Positions 2,908-19,847 of a stretch of DNA of 20,459 bases are shown piece after piece. The notes under the pieces were generated by a model. The model was not told where the DNA came from and ran no database searches. It worked only from the letters and a program-made list of their open reading frames with translations. Position 1 is the stretch's first letter. The number at the start of each line of letters is the position of its first letter. The DNA comes from a virus: IMG/VR virus record IMGVR_UViG_3300023174_000755, positions 1 through 20,459 of that record. One strand, given 5' to 3'. The position numbers and the translations under genes were made by a program.

Positions 2908-3080
2908 CAATCATAGGATTTTTATTAACGCTAGTGTGTTGGTTTTTGATAAGCGAACAATTTAATCTGGATACTTTTATCTGGTTGATTGTCGGCGTCG
3001 TAATGATGCTACACAAACCAATCGGCGCACTAATTTCAACCTTATGGAGATCGCATGAAAGAAAACGACATACTAAGTGA
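2904..3080 (+). CDS. Small membrane protein, TTG start
   Basis: A 58-residue ORF beginning at TTG 2904 within TTGA, overlapping the previous stop. GGGGAGG at 2890-2896 gives it a good ribosome binding site. Two hydrophobic segments are visible: IIGFLLTLVCWFLI (about residues 3-16) and FIWLIVGVVMML (about 25-36), followed by a basic tail ending RSHERKRHTK. A double-spanning inner membrane protein with cytoplasmic basic tail is likely. The 3' end overlaps the start of the sigma-like gene by 26 nt in another frame. The TTG start lowers confidence. Confidence 0.55.
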   Translation: MTIIGFLLTLVCWFLISEQFNLDTFIWLIVGVVMMLHKPIGALISTLWRSHERKRHTK

Positions 3081-3627
3081 TTACCTCAAATCACTGTACG
3101 GCATCGAGCCGTTGACAGTGGAGGAGGAGCACGAGCTCGCGGGCAAGATCGCCAAGGGTGACGAGCGTGCGCTAGAGAAGTTGATCAAGCACAACCTGCG
3201 CTTTGTGGTCTACGTCGTCCGTAAAATGACGGCGTGGAACCACGGCAAGGTACCGGTGGAGGACATGGTCGCCATGGGTAACGAGGCACTGTTTACAGCA
3301 GGGCGCAGGTGGGTGCCCAAGAACAACGCGCGCTTTGCCACCTACGCCAAGACATTCATTGAGAAGGGCGTACGGCGTGACCTAGACAATACGGCAAACA
3401 TCATACGGCTACCAATCAATATCATGGAGCAGGTAAAGAAGTTGAACTACACCGAGCGCTCACTATCCCAAGTACTGGGACGCAAACCAAAGGCAAGCGA
3501 GACGGCCACGCTCATGGGCGTGACAGAAAGCAAGGTGCACCAGTTGCACGGGTACATCGCACGCGAGCCAGTCTCGCTCGATTACATTAACCAAGAAAAA
3601 TTTACCGAGGAGCACTTAGATGATTGA
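3055..3627 (+). CDS. Sigma-70-family protein lacking region 4
   Basis: A 190-residue protein with GGAG at 3045-3048. Residues 5-45 match sigma region 1.2 (YLKSLYG, LTVEEEHELAGKIAKGDERA). Residues 46-110 match region 2, which binds RNA polymerase and melts the -10 element (LIKHNLRFVVYVVRKM, VEDMVAMGNEALFTAGRRW, NARFATYAKTFIEKGVRR). Residues 111-177 match region 3 (IIRLPINIMEQVKKL, LGRKPKASETATLMGVTESK, and SLDYINQE). The protein then stops, so region 4, which contacts the -35 element and the beta flap, is missing. A separate ORF at 11234 looks like region 4 alone. Expected role: redirecting host RNA polymerase to phage promoters. It lies at the end of the early cluster, which fits an early-to-middle switch. 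Family assignment is strong; function as a split sigma is inference. Confidence 0.9.
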   Translation: MKENDILSDYLKSLYGIEPLTVEEEHELAGKIAKGDERALEKLIKHNLRFVVYVVRKMTAWNHGKVPVEDMVAMGNEALFTAGRRWVPKNNARFATYAKTFIEKGVRRDLDNTANIIRLPINIMEQVKKLNYTERSLSQVLGRKPKASETATLMGVTESKVHQLHGYIAREPVSLDYINQEKFTEEHLDD

Positions 3628-3967
3628 ACTAAACGAAGTACAACAGAAGGCATACGCACGCTTTATCAGGGCGCGCGACCGAGTTGGACTGGGCGCTGTC
3701 AAACCCAACAAAAATTATAGTTGGGTGCCACTATCCGACTACTCGGCGTGCGTGGACGTCGCAGGCATGAACCACCCCCTATTCGTACAGAACGACGAGT
3801 GGCTCGAGTACAAGGAGGCATTCTCGGCGTGGCTAGCAGTTGAGCCGGAGTTTAGAGACAGGGAGCGTATGCGCATGAGCAGGGGCGACTACGGCACGCA
3901 GGATAGTTGGGAGGAGCGTGGCAACAAGGTCACGGACATCGTCAACAAGATCAAGGAGGAGAAATGA
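3620..3967 (+). CDS. Phage hypothetical protein
   Basis: A 115-residue ORF overlapping the sigma-like gene by 8 nt, with GAGGAG at 3607-3612. It opens with a helix (MIELNEVQQKAYARFIRARD), has an aromatic middle (YSWVPLSDYSACVDVAG) and a charged helical end (VTDIVNKIKEEK). No known catalytic motif. The tight coupling to the sigma-like gene makes a role in transcription control conceivable, for example as an accessory factor, but nothing in the sequence shows this. Confidence 0.7.
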   Translation: MIELNEVQQKAYARFIRARDRVGLGAVKPNKNYSWVPLSDYSACVDVAGMNHPLFVQNDEWLEYKEAFSAWLAVEPEFRDRERMRMSRGDYGTQDSWEERGNKVTDIVNKIKEEK

Positions 3968-4158
3968 GGGTCATACCGACAGACGTATTGGATAAGGAGG
4001 GCAACCTCGAGAAGATCGAGTTTTATGACGAGCTCGGTGGCTTTCAGTTTCAGGCCATGTGGGATCCATCCGACGAGCAGAGCGCAGACAACCGCCGAGA
4101 GTTTAGGGAGTGGGCCGAGGGCATGGCAAAGCGCATGGACTACGAGGTGGTGAAATGA
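3964..4158 (+). CDS. Small phage protein, unknown
   Basis: A 64-residue ORF with ATGA overlap and AAGGAGGAG at 3953-3961, a near-perfect ribosome binding site. It starts MRVIPTDVLDKEGNLEKIEF and ends in a charged helix with REFREWAEGMAKRMDYEVVK. An upstream in-frame start at 3907 would lie inside the previous gene. Unassigned. Confidence 0.7.
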   Translation: MRVIPTDVLDKEGNLEKIEFYDELGGFQFQAMWDPSDEQSADNRREFREWAEGMAKRMDYEVVK

Positions 4159-4304
4159 AGTGGGGCGACGACATCGGCAAAAAGTACCGCAAAAGATTCT
4201 TGGGTTTTGACCCGCTTGCGGAGAAATACGACCGGTACGGGACAATCGTTCTCTTTATAGCTATTTGTTATATAGGAGGGCACCTTTTATATCATTTTTG
4301 GTAG
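4155..4304 (+). CDS. Small single-pass membrane protein
   Basis: A 49-residue ORF with ATGA overlap to the gene before (GAGGTGG at 4143-4149 upstream). A basic N-terminus (MKWGDDIGKKYRKRFLG) is followed by one hydrophobic segment, TIVLFIAICYIGGHLLYHFW, which would be a C-terminal membrane anchor with the basic end in the cytoplasm. It is the last gene of the early cluster, directly before the 206-bp control region. Function unknown. Confidence 0.65.
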   Translation: MKWGDDIGKKYRKRFLGFDPLAEKYDRYGTIVLFIAICYIGGHLLYHFW

Positions 4305-4477
4305 GAAAGACGCGCTTGACGGGGTTGCGGTACTCATTTTACTATTTTTACTATTTTTAAAAAATAAAAAATAAAGATATACATAAACTGGAAACAACCC
4401 CGTCAAGCCCGTCAAGCCCGTCAAACATCAAGGACTTACAGCAACTCATTTCACATTATGAAATATTGGCACATAAA
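4305..4477 (+). other. Candidate replication origin / control region
   Basis: Non-coding. It contains a perfect 14-bp inverted repeat (4314-4327 and 4395-4408, GCTTGACGGGGTTG and its complement). The repeat flanks a 67-bp AT-rich tract whose core is nearly pure A/T with short homopolymer runs (4335-4377). The right arm runs into three tandem 9-mers. A 6-bp inverted repeat, ATTTCA-N5-TGAAAT, follows at 4448-4464. Inverted repeats, an easily melted tract and iterons directly before a primase-helicase are the usual parts of a phage origin. A weak TTGACG-18-TACTAT promoter (4316-4345) could also be present. The origin role is inference; a transcription control region is the main alternative. Confidence 0.45.
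4399..4425 (+). repeat. Three tandem 9-bp repeats (CCCGTCAAG)
   Basis: Copies at 4399-4407, 4408-4416 and 4417-4425; the last ends in A instead of G. The same sequence in reverse complement begins the left arm of the inverted repeat (CTTGACGGG at 4315-4323), so four copies surround the AT-rich tract. They look like binding sites (iterons) for an initiator or repressor. Too short and unspaced for CRISPR. Confidence 0.8.
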
Positions 4478-4479
4478 TT

Positions 4480-4491
4480 TTTGCATTAGTA
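4480..4491 (+). promoter_or_regulatory. Phage promoter-like motif, copy 1 (primase)
   Basis: TTTGCATTAGTA, one of six identical copies on the + strand. It is 19 bp before ATG 4511, with GAAAGGAAA between. It lies at the right edge of the candidate origin region. No host -10 box is found 16-18 bp downstream. If TTAGTA marks a -10-like box, the leader would be only about 10 nt. Confidence 0.65.
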
Positions 4492-4510
4492 GGTGTGAAG
4501 AAAGGAAACT

Positions 4511-6823
4511 ATGACAGATAAACCAATTTGCTTACCCGTGCAGTTCGCCACGATACCACTGGAATTGAAACGCATTCCTAGGTGGGTACTGTGGCGCCTT
4601 GTCGAGGTAGGCGACGAGGGTAACAAGAGGTGGTCTAAACTGCCAACGCAGGTAACGGGACAACCCGCCTCGTCGACCAACCCCGCGACGTGGACAGACT
4701 TCCCGTCAGTCCAACACGCCTACGAGGAAGACCCCGAGAAGTTTGCAGGTATCGGGTTCGTCTTCACATCGGAAGACAACCTCATCGGCGTGGATTTGGA
4801 CGACTGCTTTGACCACACCACCGCGCGTTTCACAAATGCTGCACTGCAACATATCTCCGACGAGCTCGAGGGCTACCACGAGGTCTCACCCAGTGGCACC
4901 GGCATCAAGATATTCACGCGCGCCGATTTAGCGCACGCCCACGTCGACCACTCACAGGGGCTGGAGATCTACCCACAGGGTCGGTTCTTCACAGTTACCG
5001 GTCACTACCTAGGCGGGACAATACCAACCGAGGCGCAGGATCTCTCGGCGTTCATCCCCGAGCGTGCACTGCACGTGACAGGCGACGCGTTCGCGGACTA
5101 CGTGCCACCAGTGGAAGGCTACGACCTGCACCGAGTTGAGATGGAGCTACTATCCAAGCTCGACCCCGACTGCGGGTACACAGACTGGATGGGCGTTGGG
5201 TTCGCGCTTTTCCACCAGTTTGGTGGGGACGTAGAGGCATGTGAGTTGTGGGATCGGTGGAGCTCGCAGTCCGGCAAGTACGCATCAAACGGCATGAATA
5301 GCTGTGAGAGTAAGTGGCGCACGTTCAAGAGTGGTGGCGCGACTCTACGGAGCATCATCTTCAAGGTCAATCAGAAAGAGAGGGCGGATGCGCTCGCTCG
5401 GGGCGAGATAGTACTCGACTCGGGCGCGATGAATCACGCACGTACCTTTCTCGACGCGCTCTACTCCAGCGAGGAGGGCTACCGGTTAGTGCACTACGCG
5501 GAAGACTTTTTTATACACGCCGGCACACACTACGAGATCATTGAGGAGGCAACGATACGCTCGAAGTTATACGCGTTCCTTGATAAGTGTAAGAAACCGG
5601 CCAAGGGTGGTGCCTTGGCGCCGTTTAATCCATCACCGGCCAGTGTATCGGGCGCCATGGACGCGATTAAGTCAATCGTGCACCTTGCAAACCAACCCAA
5701 CACCAAGCCACCGATTTGGTTTGAAGAGTATCAGGCAAATAAACCTGACGCGTCGAAGTTGATCAGCGTCAAGAACGGCCTCTTTCACCTAGAGGACAAG
5801 ATCTTACTGCCACACTCGCTCGGGTTCTTTACACAGCACTCGCTACCATTTAAGTACGACCAAGGCGCGACCTGCCCGCAGTGGGACGCGTTTTTACAGT
5901 CGATATGGGAGGATGATCAGGAGTCGATCGACACACTGCAGGAGATCTTCGGCTACATTCTGTCGGGAGACACGAGACAGCAGAAGTTTTTTAACGTAAT
6001 TGGTCCGCGACGTAGCGGTAAGGGTACGATCAACAAGGTACTCGTATCACTATTTGGACAGCACAACACCGTCGCGCCACAACTAGAGGAGCTCTGTGAT
6101 ACATTTGGCCTACAACCATGGCTTGGAAAACCCCTTGCCTCATTTACTGACGCTCGTGCACCTGAGCGTAATCGTAGCGCTGTCGTTAGCCAGTTGTTGC
6201 GTATTGTGGGTGGTGATACTGTCACCGTTAATCGCAAAAATAAAGAGGCATGGTCGGGCTATCTGCCGACGCGTATTATCGTATACTCGAACGAGGCGTT
6301 GCAATTAACAGAAAACAGTAACGCGCTCACCGGACGTATGTTGGTGCTCAAGATGCACAAGTCATTCTATAACAACGAAGACACCGACCTGTTTAATAAG
6401 CTATCCGGCGAGTTGGCCGGTATCTTTAACTGGGCAATGCAGGGCCTCGATCGCAGACTAGCGCGTGGCGGGCACTTCATTCAACCAAAGTCAGGCCGTC
6501 AGTTGTTGCTGTTGATGGAGCAGTTGGGCAACCCACTGAACTCATTCGTGGAGGACACGTTTGTGTTTGACCCCGTGGCGCAGGTTAAGAAGGACGACGT
6601 ATTCCTATGTTGGAAACGGTGGGCACTTAAACGTAGCCTACCGCCAGGATCTGAGATGTCGTTCAAGCGCAGGTTCTTGGCCGCGACACAGGAGAAACGC
6701 ATTGAGGCAGGTGAGAATCGCACCGACGGAGACCGCACCCCGATCTACTTGGGACTACGGTTTAACACATCGGCCGGCGAGTATTTAAAATCAGTTGAGA
6801 CATTTGAAACGGAAGGATATTGA
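4511..6823 (+). CDS. Replicative primase-helicase (PrimPol + SF3 helicase)
   Basis: A 770-residue protein that should prime and unwind phage DNA at the replication fork. Residues 20-170 resemble the archaeo-eukaryotic primase/PrimPol fold of phage NrS-1-type polymerases: RWVLW, NPATWTDF, IGFVFTSEDNLIGVDLDDCF with catalytic Asp95 and Asp97, then SPSGTGIKIF (126-135) and LEIYPQGRFFTVTG. Residues 205-285 match the PriCT-2 linker (YTDWMGVGFALFHQFGGD, WSSQSGKY, CESKWRTF). The C-terminal half is a D5/P4-type superfamily 3 helicase with Walker A GPRRSGKGT at 498-506, an acidic motif B near SFTDARAPE and a sensor region IIVYSNEAL...GRMLVLKM. It is first after the candidate origin and carries a phage promoter-like motif. 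Start supported by GAAAGGA at 4499-4505. Length fits the family. Confidence 0.92.
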   Translation: MTDKPICLPVQFATIPLELKRIPRWVLWRLVEVGDEGNKRWSKLPTQVTGQPASSTNPATWTDFPSVQHAYEEDPEKFAGIGFVFTSEDNLIGVDLDDCFDHTTARFTNAALQHISDELEGYHEVSPSGTGIKIFTRADLAHAHVDHSQGLEIYPQGRFFTVTGHYLGGTIPTEAQDLSAFIPERALHVTGDAFADYVPPVEGYDLHRVEMELLSKLDPDCGYTDWMGVGFALFHQFGGDVEACELWDRWSSQSGKYASNGMNSCESKWRTFKSGGATLRSIIFKVNQKERADALARGEIVLDSGAMNHARTFLDALYSSEEGYRLVHYAEDFFIHAGTHYEIIEEATIRSKLYAFLDKCKKPAKGGALAPFNPSPASVSGAMDAIKSIVHLANQPNTKPPIWFEEYQANKPDASKLISVKNGLFHLEDKILLPHSLGFFTQHSLPFKYDQGATCPQWDAFLQSIWEDDQESIDTLQEIFGYILSGDTRQQKFFNVIGPRRSGKGTINKVLVSLFGQHNTVAPQLEELCDTFGLQPWLGKPLASFTDARAPERNRSAVVSQLLRIVGGDTVTVNRKNKEAWSGYLPTRIIVYSNEALQLTENSNALTGRMLVLKMHKSFYNNEDTDLFNKLSGELAGIFNWAMQGLDRRLARGGHFIQPKSGRQLLLLMEQLGNPLNSFVEDTFVFDPVAQVKKDDVFLCWKRWALKRSLPPGSEMSFKRRFLAATQEKRIEAGENRTDGDRTPIYLGLRFNTSAGEYLKSVETFETEGY

Positions 6824-6969
6824 TGGACAACAAAGATGAGTTGATGTTTTTTGCAGGGCTCGCATTGATGGGTCTAGTTGCGCGCGGAGAGGCACCAAGC
6901 TCCGCGTCTCAACAGGCGTGGCAATACGCTGAGTTTATGTTAAACCACAAGCCCGATGAAAAAGTTTAA
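6823..6969 (+). CDS. Small phage protein, unknown
   Basis: A 48-residue ORF with its ATG overlapping the primase TGA (TGATG) and GGAAGGA at 6811-6817. Translation begins MDNKDELMFFAGLALMGLVA and continues SASQQAWQYAEFMLNHKPDEKV. The FAGLALMGL segment is hydrophobic but short and Gly-rich, so it may be a helix of a soluble protein. Known role: none that I can name. The end overlaps the next gene by 14 nt. Confidence 0.6.
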   Translation: MDNKDELMFFAGLALMGLVARGEAPSSASQQAWQYAEFMLNHKPDEKV

Positions 6970-7204
6970 TTTTCGTAGAACCACCCTGCGCAATGGTTTC
7001 ACTGAAATCTTTGGCGGGGTGGGTAACCGACGCATTGTTTTCATTCACAAAGACGGAAAGCCAAGTCATTACAAACGCACTCACATGCAGATGTACCGCA
7101 GGGCCTCGCAGGGGTGGCGCAACCAAACATACGGGCGTTTGTGTGCACTAAAACTGTATGTAAGATTTGGCAAACGTAAACCATCGAGGAGGTTTGGATT
7201 ATGA
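6956..7204 (+). CDS. Small highly basic phage protein
   Basis: An 82-residue, strongly basic protein (Lys/Arg throughout, for example MKKFNFRRTTLRNGF, HKDGKPSHYKRTHMQMYRRA, RFGKRKPSRRFG). Net charge suggests nucleic-acid binding. No zinc-binding or HTH pattern is obvious. The ATG overlaps the end of the preceding ORF and its TGA overlaps the next ATG (ATGA at 7201-7204). The ribosome binding signal is weak, consistent with coupling. Confidence 0.65.
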   Translation: MKKFNFRRTTLRNGFTEIFGGVGNRRIVFIHKDGKPSHYKRTHMQMYRRASQGWRNQTYGRLCALKLYVRFGKRKPSRRFGL

Positions 7205-7533
7205 ATACACCCGACAGGTGGGTGGTAGTCGAGGTAATAGCTGGTGACACGCACCTCTACCGCGTGTTTGGGTGCTGGTATGGCGGGTACGCCGGATCAG
7301 ATTCGTGGCAGATGAATAGTGGCATCGTGGGCGTAGACGAGGAGAAACAATACTACGACTTTCACGGCGCCTCGGGGTCTGTGTACCGGTGCTACAAACA
7401 CAATTACGGCACACACCTGTACGGCACATCGGTGCTTAATAATTTGATCGCCAAGGCAAAGGAGCAGGGCACCACGATCAACATCATGCCGGAAGAAACA
7501 AACTGGAAGGAGTTAGTATGTACCGCACAGTGA
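7201..7533 (+). CDS. Phage hypothetical protein
   Basis: A 110-residue ORF with GAGGAGG at 7186-7192. Aromatic-rich first half (DRWVVVEVIAGDTHLYRVFG, WYGGYAGSDSWQMNSGI) followed by YYDFHGASGSVYRCYKHNYG and a helical end. The pattern of DRWVV, WxGGYxGxDSW and SGS-Y-C resembles an unassigned protein frequent in phage genomes; I know no characterised member. No membrane segment. Confidence 0.75.
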   Translation: MNTPDRWVVVEVIAGDTHLYRVFGCWYGGYAGSDSWQMNSGIVGVDEEKQYYDFHGASGSVYRCYKHNYGTHLYGTSVLNNLIAKAKEQGTTINIMPEETNWKELVCTAQ

Positions 7534-7676
7534 AAGAGTATGAGGAAGCAGTTAACCGCACGCCAATGACCGACGAAGAGATCCGCGTAATGATTATCAA
7601 TATGAATAAGACCAACCAAATGTGGAGCATGCGCGACTTTGTCAGAACAGTTGAAGAACATCATGGGATAAAATAA
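7518..7676 (+). CDS. Small protein with shared DEEI...HGIK tail
   Basis: A 52-residue ORF starting in the end of the previous gene (16-nt overlap), with AAGGAG at 7507-7512. The C-terminal half, PMTDEEIRVMIINMN then MRDFVRTVEEHHGIK, is related to the tails of the proteins at 7906 and 8304 (DEEI or NEEI followed about 20 residues later by FARAIERRHGIK). This looks like a small helical module used several times in this cluster. Function unknown. Confidence 0.65.
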   Translation: MYRTVKEYEEAVNRTPMTDEEIRVMIINMNKTNQMWSMRDFVRTVEEHHGIK

Positions 7677-7909
7677 TGAAACGCAAAATGATTGACCCGC
7701 CGAGCGGCTGGAAGTATGGCTTTCCAAAAGAAATCCCCGAGCACATCGACAACACCCTGCAGTGGCTCATTGAGAACGGCTATCCGGAACAGGAGATCAA
7801 ACGATTGGGCGACAGTTTTTATGTGCGTGGGTGGTGGGAAGAAAAGCACGAGTACGAGGTATGTAGTTTAGAAGAGGCCGAAGAGTTTGCAAAGAAGAGG
7901 AACAAATGA
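7676..7909 (+). CDS. Phage hypothetical protein (YGFPK type)
   Basis: A 77-residue ORF in TAATG overlap with the previous gene. It begins MKRKMIDPPSGWKYGFPKEI, continues LQWLIENGYPEQEIKRLG and ends with an acidic-basic helix. The PPSGW-YGFPK opening and WLIENGYP motif are familiar from unassigned phage proteins; I cannot give a function. Its stop overlaps the next start (ATGA). Confidence 0.7.
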   Translation: MKRKMIDPPSGWKYGFPKEIPEHIDNTLQWLIENGYPEQEIKRLGDSFYVRGWWEEKHEYEVCSLEEAEEFAKKRNK

Positions 7910-8307
7910 ACGCATACGAATTAGCAGACTTAATGTTTGATGTAACAGACTGCGAAACTAGCGAATATTATCAAGCAGGAATGATGCTACGCCAACAAGC
8001 AGACCGCATAGCGGAGTTGGAGAAAGCATTTATTAGTCAAAGGGTAGAAGCGTATGCTAAAAGCCTTACCGATAGAACTAAAGCAAGTGCCATAGCTAAA
8101 GTATTAAATGCTAAACCAAAAGATATTTGGACTGTTTGCTTGGATTGTGGCAAAAGGGTTACAGGGGATTCCATTCATACTTGTTCACCTCAAATAAAAG
8201 AGTTAAGTGATGAGGAAATAATGAATTTGTATAAAGAAACCAAAGCTGATAATGGTGGGATTAGGGAATTTGCTAGAGCAATACTAAAGAAAGCGAGTGA
8301 AAAGTGA
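7906..8307 (+). CDS. Phage protein with CxxC zinc-like motif
   Basis: A 133-residue ORF coupled by ATGA, with GAGGAA at 7897-7902. Residues 20-50 look coiled-coil (MMLRQQADRIAELEKAF). A CLDCGKRVTGDSIHTC segment (about residues 80-95) could bind zinc through three Cys and a His. The tail, LSDEEIMNLYKETK ... IREFARAILKKASEK, is related to the proteins at 7518 and 8304. The middle is much more AT-rich than neighbouring genes (codons such as AAA, GCT, TTA dominate), suggesting recent acquisition. Function unknown. Confidence 0.75.
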   Translation: MNAYELADLMFDVTDCETSEYYQAGMMLRQQADRIAELEKAFISQRVEAYAKSLTDRTKASAIAKVLNAKPKDIWTVCLDCGKRVTGDSIHTCSPQIKELSDEEIMNLYKETKADNGGIREFARAILKKASEK

Positions 8308-8507
8308 ACAAACCAAATTATGTGGCAGAGGCGCCGTACCAACCCGGCTACGAGGACGCAATTATTACGGAATCTAGGCCAGTTTTATACGGAATCTACA
8401 AGTCAAAACCCCTTACAAATGAAGAGATTACCGGAATTAGAATGCAAACAGAAGGTGACGCGTTGGCATTCGCCCGCGCGATAGAACGGAGGCATGGAAT
8501 CAAATGA
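8304..8507 (+). CDS. Small protein with NEEI...ERRHGIK tail, GTG start
   Basis: A 67-residue ORF starting at GTG 8304 inside GTGA, overlapping the previous stop. The first half is Pro/Tyr-rich (APYQPGYEDAIITESRPVLYG); the second, PLTNEEITGIRMQTEGDALA then FARAIERRHGIK, is the clearest version of the tail shared with 7518 and 7906. The stop overlaps the next ATG. No known function. Confidence 0.65.
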   Translation: MNKPNYVAEAPYQPGYEDAIITESRPVLYGIYKSKPLTNEEITGIRMQTEGDALAFARAIERRHGIK

Positions 8508-8695
8508 AACGTAAAGAAAAAGAATTTAAATTTAGGATCCGAACACTCAGCGAGAACGAGGACGGCTCGGCTAATTGTGAGGTGGACATGGACGACTACA
8601 CCAAGGGTAAACTAATTGAGATCGGCGTCATATCGATACTAAAAGAACACATTGCACAGGAGAAAATGAAAAATGCCAAAGAAGCCTCCGTTTAA
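8504..8695 (+). CDS. Small phage protein, unknown
   Basis: A 63-residue ORF with ATGA overlap and GGAGG at 8488-8492. Basic N-terminus (MKRKEKEFKFRIRTLSENE), acidic middle (CEVDMDDYTKGKLIEIG) and a helical end. The last 23 nt overlap the next gene. No family recognised. Confidence 0.65.
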   Translation: MKRKEKEFKFRIRTLSENEDGSANCEVDMDDYTKGKLIEIGVISILKEHIAQEKMKNAKEASV

Positions 8696-8906
8696 AGTAG
8701 TCTTTGATGAGGGTGTGTTTGATGATCTTGCAGAGGACGCAGACCTGACACAGGAAGAGCTTGACGCGTTTATTGCCGGCATCTTTGAGTTGGCAGAGAG
8801 CGGAGAGATAATCGATTACTCCACACCAGTCGAAGAGCTATCCGAAGAGGAGCAGGCGGAGATTATCAGCATGCTTGAATACAAACAAAAGAAGACGAGG
8901 CACTGA
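8673..8906 (+). CDS. Small acidic phage protein, unknown
   Basis: A 77-residue ORF starting within the end of the previous gene; AGGAG at 8659-8663 precedes it. Very acidic, with two helices (LTQEELDAFIAGIFELAESG and ELSEEEQAEIISMLEYK). Strong negative charge could suit a DNA-mimic or protein-binding role, but there is no direct evidence. The stop overlaps the next ATG (TGATG at 8904-8908). Confidence 0.7.
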   Translation: MPKKPPFKVVFDEGVFDDLAEDADLTQEELDAFIAGIFELAESGEIIDYSTPVEELSEEEQAEIISMLEYKQKKTRH

Positions 8907-9460
8907 TGAAAAAATACGACTACTACAAACTAGACGTCGGTTTTTATCCAGACGTGATGAAAGTATGCTTTTCAAACACTGTATTCCAGCGAATCCTAAA
9001 AGACCACAAGGTCACGATGAAGGCCGAGGCCTTGGACATCGGCGTCGCAGAGACGCACCTAATCGGTGACGGGCAGGACGCGTTGGTTATCCTCGTGTTT
9101 AACTTGGAGGCACTCACCGACGGCATCGACGAGGTAATCGGCGCGATTGCGCACGAGGTTAGCCACGCAATTGATCACTTGGCAGAATACATTGGGGAAG
9201 ATGATGGCATCAAGGGGGAGACGCGCGCCTATCTTAGCGAGTCACTGGTACGACAATTGTTTAAGATAACGATGGCGGAGAAAAACAATAATGCTAGAAA
9301 AGCAGATCGAAAAATATCTCGTAAAAAAAGTAACCCAAAGCAAGGGGCTAACGTTCAAGTGGATATCCACAGTGACGGGGGTGCCGGATCGAATAGTGTT
9401 TCTGAACAATCAGGTCCACTTGGTGGAGCTAAAGACGGAAACCGGCCACCTATCGCCTAG
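8906..9460 (+). CDS. HExxH metallopeptidase-like phage protein
   Basis: A 184-residue ORF. Residues 80-110 contain HEVSHAIDH (His83, Glu84, His87), the HExxH zinc-peptidase motif, followed by GETRAYLSE, where Glu105 is a good third zinc ligand. This arrangement fits the zincin-type phage proteins often called putative metallopeptidases; substrate unknown, cytoplasmic because no signal peptide is visible. After about residue 126 the sequence becomes low-complexity, basic then Gly/Ser-rich, exactly where the VRR-NUC gene begins in another frame (170-nt overlap). The true functional end may therefore be near residue 126, with the rest being run-on after loss of a stop. Family call moderate, catalysis unproven. 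Confidence 0.75.
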   Translation: MKKYDYYKLDVGFYPDVMKVCFSNTVFQRILKDHKVTMKAEALDIGVAETHLIGDGQDALVILVFNLEALTDGIDEVIGAIAHEVSHAIDHLAEYIGEDDGIKGETRAYLSESLVRQLFKITMAEKNNNARKADRKISRKKSNPKQGANVQVDIHSDGGAGSNSVSEQSGPLGGAKDGNRPPIA

Positions 9461-9560
9461 GCAGGTCTTAGTGTTTGACCAGCTAGGCGAGGCTGGCTTT
9501 CCGGTACACATACTGCGCAGTTACGAAGACATTGAGGAATTTTTAAAAAATGCAAACTAA
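9291..9560 (+). CDS. VRR-NUC domain nuclease
   Basis: An 89-residue stand-alone VRR-NUC protein of the PD-(D/E)xK nuclease superfamily. Visible motifs: FKWISTVTGVPDRIVF (GVPDR at 30-34, giving the catalytic Asp), VHLVELKTETG (Glu-x-Lys at 46-48) and HLSPRQVLVFDQLGEAGFPV with the conserved Gln. Such phage proteins are structure-specific or Holliday-junction-type nucleases acting in replication or recombination, and commonly sit next to an SNF2 helicase as here. ATG 9291 lies inside the preceding metallopeptidase ORF; GGAG at 9277-9280 provides a ribosome binding site. The 3' end overlaps the HNH gene by 11 nt. Length matches single-domain phage members. Confidence 0.88.
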   Translation: MLEKQIEKYLVKKVTQSKGLTFKWISTVTGVPDRIVFLNNQVHLVELKTETGHLSPRQVLVFDQLGEAGFPVHILRSYEDIEEFLKNAN

Positions 9561-10065
9561 AAAATTAGCGCATATAAAAAAATATTACGATAACGCACGC
9601 AGTCGAGCCAAAGCATTTAATTTACCATTTAATTTAACAGTGCCCCACCTCGTATCAATTGCACACGATGAATGCCCGATATTTAAAACCCCGTTAACTT
9701 GGGGAGTATCAAAAATGGGTAAAGGCAAAAGACGACGAGACACACCACAGTTAGACCGCATTATTCCTGAACTGGGATATGTAATTGGTAACGTCGCCTT
9801 TCTATCCGGCAAGGCAAACAAAATGAAAGATAACGGAACAATGCAAGAGCATTACGCAATTGCTGACTGGATATGGGAACATACACATGCTAAAGAGAAA
9901 TCAGTTACACCAGTATCAATTATCAATGATCGAAAAAGCCAAAATAACTCAAAATATAGCGTTATTCATGGAACCCGGTCTTGGGAAGACAGCAACGACG
10001 CTAACGATTATCGCGGAGCAGTTCAAGGGGAAAACTCTTATCGTAGCGCCAAAGAGGGTAGCTGA
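9550..10065 (+). CDS. HNH-type endonuclease overlapping the helicase start
   Basis: A 171-residue ORF. Residues 1-111 resemble phage HNH/homing-type endonucleases: a helical DNA-binding start (IKKYYDNARSRAKAFNLPFN), HDECPIFKTPLTWG, then PQLDRIIPELGYVIGNVAFL and SGKANKMKDNGT. The LDRI-GY-GNV-AN-K pattern is diagnostic. The recognisable fold ends about residue 111, and from residue 113 onward the DNA also encodes the N-terminus of the SNF2 helicase in another frame. The last 59 residues are therefore probably run-on without function. The gene is more AT-rich than the flanks. It probably is a mobile endonuclease inserted between VRR-NUC and helicase. Confidence 0.8.
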   Translation: MQTKKLAHIKKYYDNARSRAKAFNLPFNLTVPHLVSIAHDECPIFKTPLTWGVSKMGKGKRRRDTPQLDRIIPELGYVIGNVAFLSGKANKMKDNGTMQEHYAIADWIWEHTHAKEKSVTPVSIINDRKSQNNSKYSVIHGTRSWEDSNDANDYRGAVQGENSYRSAKEGS

Positions 10066-11227
10066 AACAGTATGGGACACGGAGGCCAAAAAATGGGAAC
10101 ACCTAAAAAATTTAAAGATAGCAAAGATACTCGGAACACCGAGTCAACGGTTGACAGCGTTGAAGAGTTCTTCGAACGTGTACGTAGTCAATCTCGAGAA
10201 CTTGATATGGTTGTTGGATCAACCGTCAATGCAATTCAACAATCTGATAATCGACGAGTCGAGTCGCTTCAAAGATCCTTCGACAAAAAGATTCAAGACC
10301 TTGAAAAAACACTTAAAGAGCTTCGAGAGGCGTATTATTCTGACAGGCACCCCTACCCCCCAGGGGATGAGTGATCTCTGGTCCCAGGTGGGTATATTGG
10401 ACTTAGGGAGCCGTTTAGAGACGTCCCTGACCCGGTTCAGAGATAAGTACATGGAGCCGGACCAAGTCAACCGCCATACACGGGTGGTATATAGCTGGAG
10501 GATAAAGAAAGGTATGGACAAAGTAATTCAGGACAAGATCGCGGACATTTGTTTTAGTCTAAAGGCCGAGGATTATTTGACACTACCAAAATTAACCAAA
10601 CTGTATCACAAAGTAGACATAACCACCGCAGAGCGTAAACAATATGACACACTTAAAAAAGACATGGTATCCGAAATTGAGGGAGAGACAATCACTGCCC
10701 CTACTGCGGCCGCGCTTGCAGGTAAACTCCTGCAATTTACCAGCGGGGCAATTTATTCCGAGGACGGTGAGTGGCACGAAATCCACTCGTCTAAATTGGA
10801 ATTTCTTGAGTCGATCTTGGAGGAGTCCTCGTCCCCGACACTTGTCTTCTATCACTTCAAACATTCATTACAGCGTCTTCGACTCAAATTTCCGGAGGCT
10901 GTCGTGCTTGATGATTCCAACATACAAGCGTGGCGTGATGGTAAGATCAGAGTTATGCTGGCGCATCCGCAATCTGGAGGCATCGGCATTAACCTCCAGT
11001 GTAATGTTGGAGAGACAGCGCAGACCGTCTGGTATGACCTGCCGTGGAGTTCAGAGAACTACATTCAGGCAAACGCACGAATCTACCGCCAAGGCCAAGA
11101 GAAACCTGTCATTATCCACCACCTAGCCGTATCTAACAGCATTGACGAGCAGGTAATTAAGGTATTAGACGGAAAAATAAATTTGCAAGATGCCCTGTTA
11201 AACGCCCTAAATTTTGCATTAGTATAA
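9887..11227 (+). CDS. SNF2-family DEAD-like helicase
   Basis: A 446-residue superfamily 2 helicase of the phage SNF2 type. From ATG 9887 the protein begins MLKRNQLHQYQLSMIEKA, the expected Q-like start. Motif I is EPGLGKT (29-35), motif II is IIDESSRFKD (DESS in place of DEAH, at 123-126), motif III is LTGTPTPQG, and motifs V-VI are GGIGINLQC and QANARIYRQGQEKPV. It likely moves along or remodels DNA in replication/recombination with the neighbouring VRR-NUC nuclease. An in-frame ATG at 9860 is possible but adds no conserved residues. The first 179 nt overlap the HNH gene, and the last codons (FALV and stop) lie in the promoter-like motif at 11213-11224. Confidence 0.92.
   Translation: MLKRNQLHQYQLSMIEKAKITQNIALFMEPGLGKTATTLTIIAEQFKGKTLIVAPKRVAETVWDTEAKKWEHLKNLKIAKILGTPSQRLTALKSSSNVYVVNLENLIWLLDQPSMQFNNLIIDESSRFKDPSTKRFKTLKKHLKSFERRIILTGTPTPQGMSDLWSQVGILDLGSRLETSLTRFRDKYMEPDQVNRHTRVVYSWRIKKGMDKVIQDKIADICFSLKAEDYLTLPKLTKLYHKVDITTAERKQYDTLKKDMVSEIEGETITAPTAAALAGKLLQFTSGAIYSEDGEWHEIHSSKLEFLESILEESSSPTLVFYHFKHSLQRLRLKFPEAVVLDDSNIQAWRDGKIRVMLAHPQSGGIGINLQCNVGETAQTVWYDLPWSSENYIQANARIYRQGQEKPVIIHHLAVSNSIDEQVIKVLDGKINLQDALLNALNFALV
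11213..11224 (+). promoter_or_regulatory. Phage promoter-like motif, copy 2 (region-4-like gene)
   Basis: TTTGCATTAGTA followed by TAAT, so the extended motif contains a perfect TATAAT at 11223-11228. It overlaps the stop of the helicase and ends only 9 bp before ATG 11234. If TATAAT acts as the -10 box, transcription would begin at about the start codon and the next gene would be leaderless; no ribosome binding site is visible there. Confidence 0.65.
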
Positions 11228-11233
11228 TTACGT

Positions 11234-11545
11234 ATGAAGAAAATCACAATATACAAAATTAGCGCAACAGCCCCGCGACTCAGCGATGAGGATCCGGACC
11301 CAATCGAACAGGATGAGAGCGAGGGCATCTCCTCAAATATCATTGAGGGGTGGTTACCTTGGGATCCTGAAGATATTTCTGACATACGTCGACTGATCTC
11401 AGATAAGTTGCCGCCTAAGCAACAGTTTATTATCGAGTCATTTTTAGACGGCATGACGTACACAGACGTATGTGTAACAGAAAAATACTGGCGCTATCAT
11501 TTTGCTAAGGGCATTGAACTTATTAGGAAGGAACTAAAGCTATGA
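11234..11545 (+). CDS. Sigma region 4-like DNA-binding protein
   Basis: A 103-residue protein. The first 45 residues are acidic and probably disordered. Residues 47-100 resemble sigma-70 region 4: a first helix DISDIRRLISDKLPPKQQFI corresponding to 4.1, then FLDGMTYTDVCVTEKYWRYH and AKGIELIRKEL as the helix-turn-helix of 4.2. This is the part missing from the sigma-like protein at 3055. Region 4 normally binds the -35 element and the RNA polymerase beta flap. The gene has a copy of the repeated promoter-like motif at its start, so it might be made in a feed-forward step. Alternatives are an ArpU/RinA-type phage activator or a generic HTH regulator. HTH call good; pairing with the 3055 protein is inference. 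Confidence 0.7.
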   Translation: MKKITIYKISATAPRLSDEDPDPIEQDESEGISSNIIEGWLPWDPEDISDIRRLISDKLPPKQQFIIESFLDGMTYTDVCVTEKYWRYHFAKGIELIRKELKL

Positions 11546-12813: not shown

Positions 12814-13015
12814 AGATTTGTTAGACCGGGCCGGTATCCGTAACGATATAGACAAGGCACTGGCGGACAAAGAGGCGGCCAAGGAGAAGCAGATCCAGGA
12901 AATGGCCGGGGCAGTAACCCGCCTAATCATCAACGAGTCAATTAAAGAGGCCAAGGCTCGCGCTGCAGAGCGTGACAGGCTATTAATTAACCCGGATGGG
13001 GCGGAAAAGAAGTAG
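12803..13015 (+). CDS. Small charged helical protein
   Basis: A 70-residue ORF starting at ATG 12803; a TTG start at 12785 is also in frame but sits only 3 nt after its purine-rich box. Almost entirely helical and charged (RNDIDKALADKEAAKEKQIQ, SIKEAKARAAERDRLLI). Ends directly before the promoter-like motif at 13018. Function unknown; ribosome binding signal weak, so coupled translation is likely. Confidence 0.6.
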   Translation: MKLKDLLDRAGIRNDIDKALADKEAAKEKQIQEMAGAVTRLIINESIKEAKARAAERDRLLINPDGAEKK

Positions 13016-13017
13016 AT

Positions 13018-13029
13018 TTTGCATTAGTA
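13018..13029 (+). promoter_or_regulatory. Phage promoter-like motif, copy 3
   Basis: TTTGCATTAGTA, three bases after the stop of the preceding gene and 73 bp before ATG 13103. The downstream leader contains a small GC hairpin (TCGGG-AGACA-CCCGA, 13050-13064). Confidence 0.65.
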
Positions 13030-13102: not shown

Positions 13103-13360
13103 ATGAACCCTTTTGAATTACGATATGATTTACTCAAGACCTCCAAGGAGTTCTTAACCGAGCAGTACAACGCCCAGTTAAAGGCGTGGGAAGTGGCAGA
13201 CGAGGCAGGTAAAAAACTGCTCGAAAACGCGCCCAAGTTCCCCACAATGCACGAGATCATTGACAACGCCGTGGAGATGAACAAGTTCATCAGCACCACG
13301 ATCGAGGCACAATTGGTCGACGGCGTTAAGCGCTTTAATCGTATCACAGCAGTATTTTAA
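13103..13360 (+). CDS. Phage hypothetical protein, own promoter motif
   Basis: An 85-residue ORF with GGAG at 13092-13095 and a dedicated leader. It begins MNPFELRYDLLKTSKEFLTE and is largely helical (QYNAQLKAWEVADEAGKKLL, MHEIIDNAVEMNKFISTTIE). The MNPFELR opening is familiar from unassigned proteins of marine T4-like phages, but I cannot name a function. It is the only gene between the copy-3 motif and a terminator at 13366, so it may be a monocistronic, strongly made product. Confidence 0.75.
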   Translation: MNPFELRYDLLKTSKEFLTEQYNAQLKAWEVADEAGKKLLENAPKFPTMHEIIDNAVEMNKFISTTIEAQLVDGVKRFNRITAVF

Positions 13361-13615: not shown

Positions 13616-13760
13616 ACCTGGCCTCTATGCCAACATCCAAAAAAAGCGTGAACGTATCAAGCAGGGATCCGGCGAGAAGATGCGCAAGCCTGGTGACCCC
13701 GGCGCGCCTACATCCAAGGCATTTAAAGATTCTGCAAAGACCGCTAAAAAACCAAAATGA
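13593..13760 (+). CDS. Small basic conserved phage protein (KPGLYANI type)
   Basis: A 55-residue basic protein (43 to 51 if started at ATG 13605). Sequence features KPGLYANIQKKRERIKQGSG, EKMRKPGDPGAPTSKAFKDS and AKTAKKPK. I recall near-identical small proteins (KPGLYANIHAKRKRI, GSGE-MRKPG, GAPT, SAKTAK) in many marine podo- and myoviruses, usually close to packaging or structural genes; the role is not established. No good ribosome binding site is near ATG 13593, but GGAG sits in the loop of the hairpin described at 13552-13602. The stop overlaps the terminase-like gene (ATGA). Confidence 0.8.
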   Translation: MGYSMAAKPGLYANIQKKRERIKQGSGEKMRKPGDPGAPTSKAFKDSAKTAKKPK

Positions 13761-14149
13761 CCACAAAGAAATCAACAGCTAAAAAATTATTTACTAAGGA
13801 GATGGCAGACACGCTATTAGATCTTGGTAAGCAAGGCGCGTCCCAAAAATCCATGTATGCAGCAATTGGTATTAGCAAAGCCACCGCGGCTAAATGGAAA
13901 CAGGAAGACCCGCATTTTGCTGAGACCATGGACCTAGCCACGACCTACGGGCAGAGCTTTTGGGAAATGATGCTGTTGGCTAATATTGATAACAAAAATT
14001 TTAACTCCAGAGTAGCCGAGATTGCACTACGCGGCCAGTATCCTGATGATTACAAAGACAATCGAGAGATCAAGGCAAACATCAAGCAAGAGGTGGTGGT
14101 AGATTTCAATAAAGAGGTTCAAGATTTAATACGGGCATTAAAAAGTTAG
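13757..14149 (+). CDS. Terminase small subunit-like protein
   Basis: A 130-residue protein. Residues 15-55 form a helix-turn-helix (MADTLLDLGKQGASQKSMYA, AIGISKATAAKWKQEDPHF), the type used to recognise packaging sites. Residues 60-130, with WEMMLLANIDNKNFNSRVAE, ALRGQYPDDYKDNREIKANI and a C-terminal VVDFNKEVQDLIRALK, match the small terminase/DNA-packaging families of tailed phages, where the tail contacts the large subunit. Its partner, the large terminase, is not in the window; downstream come an HNH gene and replication genes instead. Function in genome packaging is a good inference; a general HTH regulator is possible. Confidence 0.75.
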   Translation: MTTKKSTAKKLFTKEMADTLLDLGKQGASQKSMYAAIGISKATAAKWKQEDPHFAETMDLATTYGQSFWEMMLLANIDNKNFNSRVAEIALRGQYPDDYKDNREIKANIKQEVVVDFNKEVQDLIRALKS

Positions 14150-14792: not shown

Positions 14793-14804
14793 TTTGCATT
14801 AGTA
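14793..14804 (+). promoter_or_regulatory. Phage promoter-like motif, copy 4 (DUF2800)
   Basis: TTTGCATTAGTA, 7 bp after the stop of the HNH gene and 31 bp before ATG 14836. AAAGA precedes the start codon. Its position suggests the HNH gene was inserted upstream of an existing promoter. Confidence 0.65.
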
Positions 14805-16368: not shown

Positions 16369-16492
16369 AGAGAAGTTATCACAAGAAGAGCTGTCAAAAA
16401 TGCAAATGTCCCAAGAACAAACCCTTGCAGATTATTACAGAAGACGCTTGGAATATTGGGATTATCGTATTGTGAAAAATATAAATGAATAA
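16346..16492 (+). CDS. Small helical protein, unknown
   Basis: A 48-residue ORF starting inside the previous gene, with GGAG at 16338-16341. Gln/Glu-rich helix (EEKLSQEELSKMQMSQEQTL) followed by an aromatic-basic end (YYRRRLEYWDYRIVKNINE). Its stop is immediately followed by the promoter-like motif at 16494. Probable but unassigned. Confidence 0.55.
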   Translation: MEYSTTHEEKLSQEELSKMQMSQEQTLADYYRRRLEYWDYRIVKNINE

Positions 16493-16493
16493 G

Positions 16494-16505
16494 TTTGCAT
16501 TAGTA
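16494..16505 (+). promoter_or_regulatory. Phage promoter-like motif, copy 5 (DUF2815)
   Basis: TTTGCATTAGTA followed by TATTT, so the extended motif reads TAGTATATT. It starts 1 bp after the preceding stop and is 67 bp before ATG 16573. The leader contains a 7-bp hairpin. Confidence 0.65.
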
Positions 16506-19812: not shown

Positions 19813-19838
19813 GGGGAGCTTCGGCTCCCCTCTTTTTT
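19813..19838 (+). terminator. Strong intrinsic terminator
   Basis: GGGGAGC-TTCG-GCTCCCC (19813-19830), a 7-bp GC stem with a stable UUCG-type tetraloop, then TCTTTTTT (19831-19838). The T-run is continuous with promoter-like motif copy 6. It closes the reductase-HNH-DUF1289 unit. Confidence 0.9.
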
Positions 19839-19847
19839 GCATTAGTA
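19836..19847 (+). promoter_or_regulatory. Phage promoter-like motif, copy 6 (DNA polymerase)
   Basis: TTTGCATTAGTA followed by TACTT, beginning in the T-run of the terminator and 35 bp before ATG 19883. A small CCGA-TACG-TCGG hairpin lies in the leader (19855-19866). A terminator joined directly to this motif is the best positional evidence that the motif starts transcription. Confidence 0.75.

Follow-up and report, generated by a model that had tools for sequence, protein, structure and literature searches.

An apparently split sigma factor and two promoter classes in an uncultured freshwater phage group

Two sigma-like genes and their distribution

The window analysed here is the whole of IMG/VR record IMGVR_UViG_3300023174_000755 (20,459 bases), a phage fragment whose viral origin is beyond doubt and which belongs to a large, abundant group of uncultured freshwater phages. 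It carries genes for a primase-helicase, a SNF2-type helicase, an exonuclease, a Gp2.5-like single-stranded DNA-binding protein (SSB) and a ribonucleotide reductase, together with the start of a DNA polymerase gene, named from its own sequence (MIYSIDFETRS). A search for a T7-type polymerase gave no match, and its positive control likewise gave none. Two further open reading frames, both present at the coordinates given in Table 1, encode the sigma-like proteins considered here, which we call piece 1 and piece 2.

Table 1. Genes, promoter elements and associated features in the window
Feature	Position	Strand	Inferred +1	Basis
Sigma piece 1, 190 aa; regions 1.2, 2 and 3.0/3.1, ending before 3.2	3055..3627	+		Pfam, SigA alignment, fixed C-terminus
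Dyad TTTCACATTATGAAA, centred at -41 of the primase promoter	4449..4463	.		
Extended -10, no -35 box, before primase-helicase	4480..4491	+	4497	
Primase-helicase (middle class)	4511..6823	+		PHROGs
Extended -10, no -35 box, before piece 2 gene	11213..11224	+	11230 (many relatives: A of ATG)	
Sigma piece 2, 103 aa; region-4-like HTH at residues ~45-101, conserved acidic N-terminus PRLSDEDxDPIEQDD	11234..11545	+		Pfam r4_2 in 20/53 members, AF2, Foldseek
-35-like box GGGGCGG at fixed offset -20 from motif	12998..13004	+		
Extended -10 of boxed (late-class) promoter, before gene 13103-13360 and terminase small subunit gene	13018..13029	+	13035	
Terminase small subunit (late class)	13757..14149	+		PHROGs
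Extended -10, no box, before exonuclease	14793..14804	+		
Extended -10, no box, before SSB	16494..16505	+		
Intrinsic terminator-like hairpin directly upstream of DNA polymerase promoter	19813..19830	+		
Extended -10, no box, before DNA polymerase (starts ~19883); T-run overlaps terminator tail	19836..19847	+		

Piece 1 gives Pfam matches to Sigma70_r1_2 (2.5e-5), Sigma70_r2 (2.2e-5) and Sigma70_r3 (1.1e-7), all above the curated cut-offs, as well as 79 PDB matches. Its alignment with SigA runs from region 1.2 to 'EPVSLD' at the end of region 3.1, where the protein stops. The C-terminus lies within two residues of the model end in all 99 intact homologues, and in none of these is region 4 found on the same chain. 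Because the homologues share this end, piece 1 is neither frameshifted nor truncated, and the missing region 4 is a fixed character of the protein. The gene is located in the early region with no copy of the phage motif upstream, and host-type early promoters could not be convincingly distinguished from chance. Records of the phage collection that seemed to hold close sigma homologues proved, where examined, to contain either complete bacterial SigA/RpoD as a result of mis-binning or ordinary complete phage sigmas. Two phage records, L107 (MK416018.1) and L104 (OR846618.1), contain apparent dnaG-rpoD regions that are probably host DNA.

Piece 2 belongs to a strongly conserved family, the conservation extending to the acidic N-terminus and a C-terminal EKYWRYHF helix. 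The window protein scores below the cut-off against Sigma70_r4_2 (Pfam, E=0.13) and no locus reaches the curated region-4 cut-off; among 53 diverse members 20 match Sigma70_r4_2 (best E 4.7e-5), and any other family is matched by at most five. AlphaFold predicts a helical domain (pLDDT ~94 over residues 61-100) on which two models agree. In a Foldseek search of the PDB the top seven matches to this model were sigma region-4 chains (E 0.7-2, none individually significant); every match had E>0.4, sigma region 4 led in both runs, and domain 4 of SigW on -35 DNA gave a TM score of 0.72. LuxR/NarL-type HTHs rank after sigma region 4 in this list, as expected for a related fold. A PDB profile search gave no sigma match to piece 2, profile-profile comparison was not robust, and the HTH is short of about four residues in its first helix. 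A resemblance of piece 2 to sigma region 4 is probable, though not proven, over residues ~45-101 only.

Other readings of piece 2 did not hold. One alignment made it tempting to take the acidic N-terminus for a sigma finger (region 3.2), but column shuffles scored as high in 131 of 200 cases, and matches to PEPCK and a ubiquitin variant are due to chance. A paralogue of piece 2 is present in three related contigs (L016 7610-7948, L061 1061-1366 and L212 8982-9275) and not in the window; the copies in L016 and L061 are found immediately upstream of the Gam-like and sigma genes.

Profile searches for both genes covered 97 related contigs and the window. The two genes occur together in 55 contigs, always on the same strand with the sigma gene upstream, at a distance of 5.8-11.4 kb except in G087, whose contig seems to break the gene order at a different point. 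Only one gene was seen in 24 sigma-only and 18 small-protein-only contigs, with longest relevant flanks of 10.3 and 8.5 kb respectively, too short to tell; among contigs with enough flanking sequence no pair was broken. Within 34 contigs, two of them longer than 63 kb, we found no second region-2 protein, no full-length sigma and no region-4 match at the cut-off. Phages related through the portal protein (Caulobacter RW and MW202545, both related also by TerL, HTVC027P, CRP-901 and two others) gave no region-2 match and lack the motif in the stretches examined; the search for the small protein in them, run without a positive control, was likewise empty.

These results bear directly on the initial annotation of this DNA, which had proposed a single sigma factor split over two genes. 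On the side of piece 1 the split is confirmed by the Pfam matches and the fixed end, and neither independent loss of one gene nor, within the 34 contigs, a complete sigma elsewhere, either of which would have counted against it, was encountered. The region-4 similarity that it anticipated from an HMM search is present, in the predicted fold and in the Pfam matches of other family members. Its description of piece 2 as mostly region 4 probably holds for the fold, is weak by sequence and applies to residues ~45-101 only.

Two classes of promoter

Six exact copies of the 12-mer TTTGCATTAGTA are present in the window; all lie on the + strand, each before a gene. Allowing up to two mismatches, the corresponding 13-mer has eight matches against 0.86 expected from shuffles. 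As the initial annotation had observed, the region-4 gene carries this repeated motif, one copy beginning 21 bases before its start codon. In loci from relatives the motif favours the sigma strand by 200 to 9. It varies by lineage, in step across the promoters of one genome (TTTGTATTATTA, TTTGCATTATTG, TTTGCATTAATA, TGCGTATTAGTA), and some lineages have no motif directly before the region-4-like gene.

Promoter sites anchored on genes in 26 contigs fall into two classes, which we call middle and late by gene function and not by measured timing. None of the 81 sites before the primase, piece 2, exonuclease, SSB and DNA polymerase genes has a -35-like box. At the 98 late sites, which lie before the TerS-side gene, the TerL-side gene and the portal, head and tail genes, AGGGCGG (up to two mismatches) stands at exactly -20 from the motif in 90, and GGGCGG (up to one mismatch) at exactly -19 in 89. 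The difference at -20 between replication and packaging/virion sites gives a Fisher value of 3e-42, which overstates independence because the contigs are related; counted by gene family, the box is found in 0 of 5 replication and 8 of 8 late families. The weakest of these is the YVYQI gene, whose promoter has a degenerate box (7/14). A leftward 177-aa gene among the virion genes (G007 29037-29570) has the extended -10 motif without a -35 box, and a different expression time is possible for it.

Almost all late sites and the majority of the remaining ones have A at motif position 17, preceded by a pyrimidine, and 97 of the 98 late sites read T-1/A+1. Taking this position as +1 places TG at -15/-14, makes ATTAGT the -10 element and sets the box at -36 to -30, the canonical sigma-70 layout. 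The start codon begins exactly at position 17 in 14/14 YVYQI genes, 14/15 MKDF genes and most piece 2 lineages with the motif directly upstream; piece 2 of the window has its ATG at +5. An ATG at the inferred +1 would give leaderless mRNAs, for which these genes are candidates. Two other layouts were rejected: TATRTA (positions 12-17) as the -10, because the ATG begins at position 17 in three gene families, and the motif as a SigA-like -35 box, because no conserved -10 lies 17 bp downstream.

The T's upstream of the motif's G are intact in 80/81 box-less replication promoters versus 58/90 boxed late promoters (p=1.4e-9), and in 7/8 late promoters that lack the box. Similarly, TGCG is retained at the replication promoters of the TGCGT lineages, where most boxed late promoters read AGCG or GGCG instead. 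Loss of the upstream T's is thus tolerated by boxed promoters only, which would follow if either of the two contacts, extended -10 or -35, can stand in for the other as it does in E. coli. Region 3.0 of E. coli sigma contacts extended -10 DNA, and region 3.0 of the phage sigma varies with the motif, reading RLP[IV]NI with TTTGC and RIPIKVREE with TGCGT; the change to TGCGT seems to have arisen only once in evolution. G028 (L088, L182) combines a TTTGC-type sigma and primase promoter with other promoters of TGCGT type, and may be a recombinant or a chimeric assembly. The box and the recognition helix are both invariant and so show no covariation.

Further elements accompany some promoters. In many relatives the primase and SSB promoters carry a TTTCACATTGTGAAA-like dyad with its centre at -41 (in the window, 4449-4463 and ~16463-16477), which is the position of a class II activator or operator. 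Hairpin terminators abut the motif (19813-19847 in the window, and at exonuclease promoters in relatives), so that the U-tract and the T-run of the motif are shared.

A proposed stepwise sigma factor and its alternatives

To account for these features we propose that the sigma factor is delivered in two pieces at two times, the second adding -35 recognition, and we consider this reading probable. Piece 1 (regions 1.2-3.1), made from the early operon, would bind host core RNA polymerase and with it read the extended -10 promoters (TTTGCATTAGTA, TG at -15/-14) with no -35 contact needed. E. coli TGn/-10 promoters offer a precedent, as they need no contact between region 4 and a -35 element (PMC2988021). 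The box-less promoters would switch on the replication genes and piece 2. Piece 2, a free-standing region-4-like domain, would then join this holoenzyme, with the beta flap as the probable docking site, and would probably read the GGGCGG box, which precedes the -10 by 17-18 bp, whereupon the boxed promoters would open the terminase, portal, head and tail genes. Both the reading of the motif by piece 1 and the timing of the steps are inferred. We regard this as the best explanation; in its favour are the domain content, the 55 co-occurrences, the predicted region-4 fold, the promoter classes and their spacing, the placing of the start, the retention of upstream T's in box-less promoters, the region 3.0 change and the TGn/-10 precedent. 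Against it count the weak sequence evidence for region 4, the single origin of the TGCGT change and the mixed contig G028, the degenerate YVYQI box and the box-less 177-aa gene, and the lineages whose region-4-like gene has no motif directly before it.

The initial annotation had suggested a feed-forward switch, with an early region 2-3 protein completed later. This idea is strengthened, since the region-4 gene lies behind a box-less promoter and the late genes have -35 boxes, and the promoter classes lend it strong new support. What changes is the role of piece 1, which is predicted to be active alone at extended -10 promoters and not to be a half that waits for its partner; besides, single-element promoters served by a sigma without region 4 were already known from phiEco32 gp36 (PMC8948821). 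That earlier interpretation is, overall, partly supported.

An alternative is that piece 1 reads both promoter classes, that GGGCGG is bound by another activator of phage or host, and that the region-4-like protein is an independent regulator such as an autoregulator or repressor. The marginal sequence similarity of piece 2 to region 4 would fit such a role, as would the match of LuxR-type HTHs to its fold and the occurrence of a paralogue, which precedes sigma in two of the three contigs that have it. However, the box has a fixed spacing and the canonical -35 location, which is the site of action of sigma region 4, and piece 2 is the only protein of region-4 fold found, always paired with a sigma that lacks region 4. 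We judge this alternative unlikely.

Rather less probable still is that piece 2 occupies the region-4 site without reading DNA, as a flap-binding coactivator or host-shut-off factor. In its favour, T4 gp33, like region 4, clamps the tip of the flap (PMC7892883), and phiEco32 gp79 inhibits sigma70 and stimulates gp36 (PMC8948821). Yet gp33 is structurally unrelated to region 4, which the piece 2 model probably resembles, and a sequence-specific, late-only -35 box would be left unexplained. That the two proteins are functionally unrelated and co-occur through common ancestry of a conserved genome core, as other core genes likewise do, is very improbable given their complementary domain content, the late-only -35 box, and the structural-gene relatives without sigma that also lack the motif and, in the search without positive control, the small protein.

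Comparison with known systems

Two-part or region-4-less sigmas are already known, namely SigO-RsoA, T4 gp55/gp33, SPO1 gp33/gp34 and phiEco32 gp36/gp79. SPO1 gp33/gp34 is a two-protein late phage sigma for which no middle class read by one piece alone is reported. In phiEco32, gp36 is a phage sigma without region 4 that uses single-element promoters for middle and late genes and is stimulated by the small middle protein gp79 (PMC8948821). Piece 1 resembles gp36 in its missing region 4 and, if it reads the motif, would do so in using single-element promoters. For phiEco32 neither a late -35 class nor a region-4 identity of gp79 is described (PMC8948821), whereas the phages studied here have a region-4-like domain on a gene of its own and two-element promoters at their late genes.

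Bacillus subtilis SigO-RsoA likewise places sigma-2 and sigma-4 functions on two proteins (PMC8103513), and the unbroken pairing of the two phage genes in 55 contigs fits a two-subunit sigma of that type. Both proteins are needed for transcription in that system, whereas piece 1, in which regions 1.2 and 3 are present as well, is expected to serve one promoter class by itself. Late promoters of the phages have both elements, replication promoters one. T4 gp55/gp33/gp45 is similar in being a two-part late factor acting on host RNA polymerase (PMC7892883). T4 gp33, however, does not resemble region 4 and acts together with the sliding clamp, and T4 late promoters have a single TATAAATA-type element without a -35 box, in contrast to the predicted region-4-like fold of piece 2 and the bipartite late promoters of these phages. 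Phage 7-11 gp47 also reads bipartite late promoters (PMC8948821), with region 4 on the same protein instead of a separate gene. In the open-access literature we found no precedent with a single piece sufficing for one promoter class and the second piece adding a -35 class.

The full sequence of events, in which a region-4-less form acts first, one extended -10 promoter drives a free-standing region 4, and -35 boxes and late genes follow, so that promoter class mirrors the sigma domains present, has in our estimate an even chance of being correct. If so, the virus times its life cycle by assembling its sigma factor stepwise, and the modular domains of sigma serve as a developmental timer, the -35-reading domain being supplied later as a separate protein. 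With dozens of lineages and co-varying promoters, this would be a natural system for separating what region 4 does from what the extended -10 contact does. For this phage group, the analysis also provides maps of promoters and a set of candidate leaderless mRNAs. Among the genes behind the motif in G008, G011 and G016 is a small one resembling acyl carrier protein (DSLD motif), inserted between the helicase and region-4 genes.
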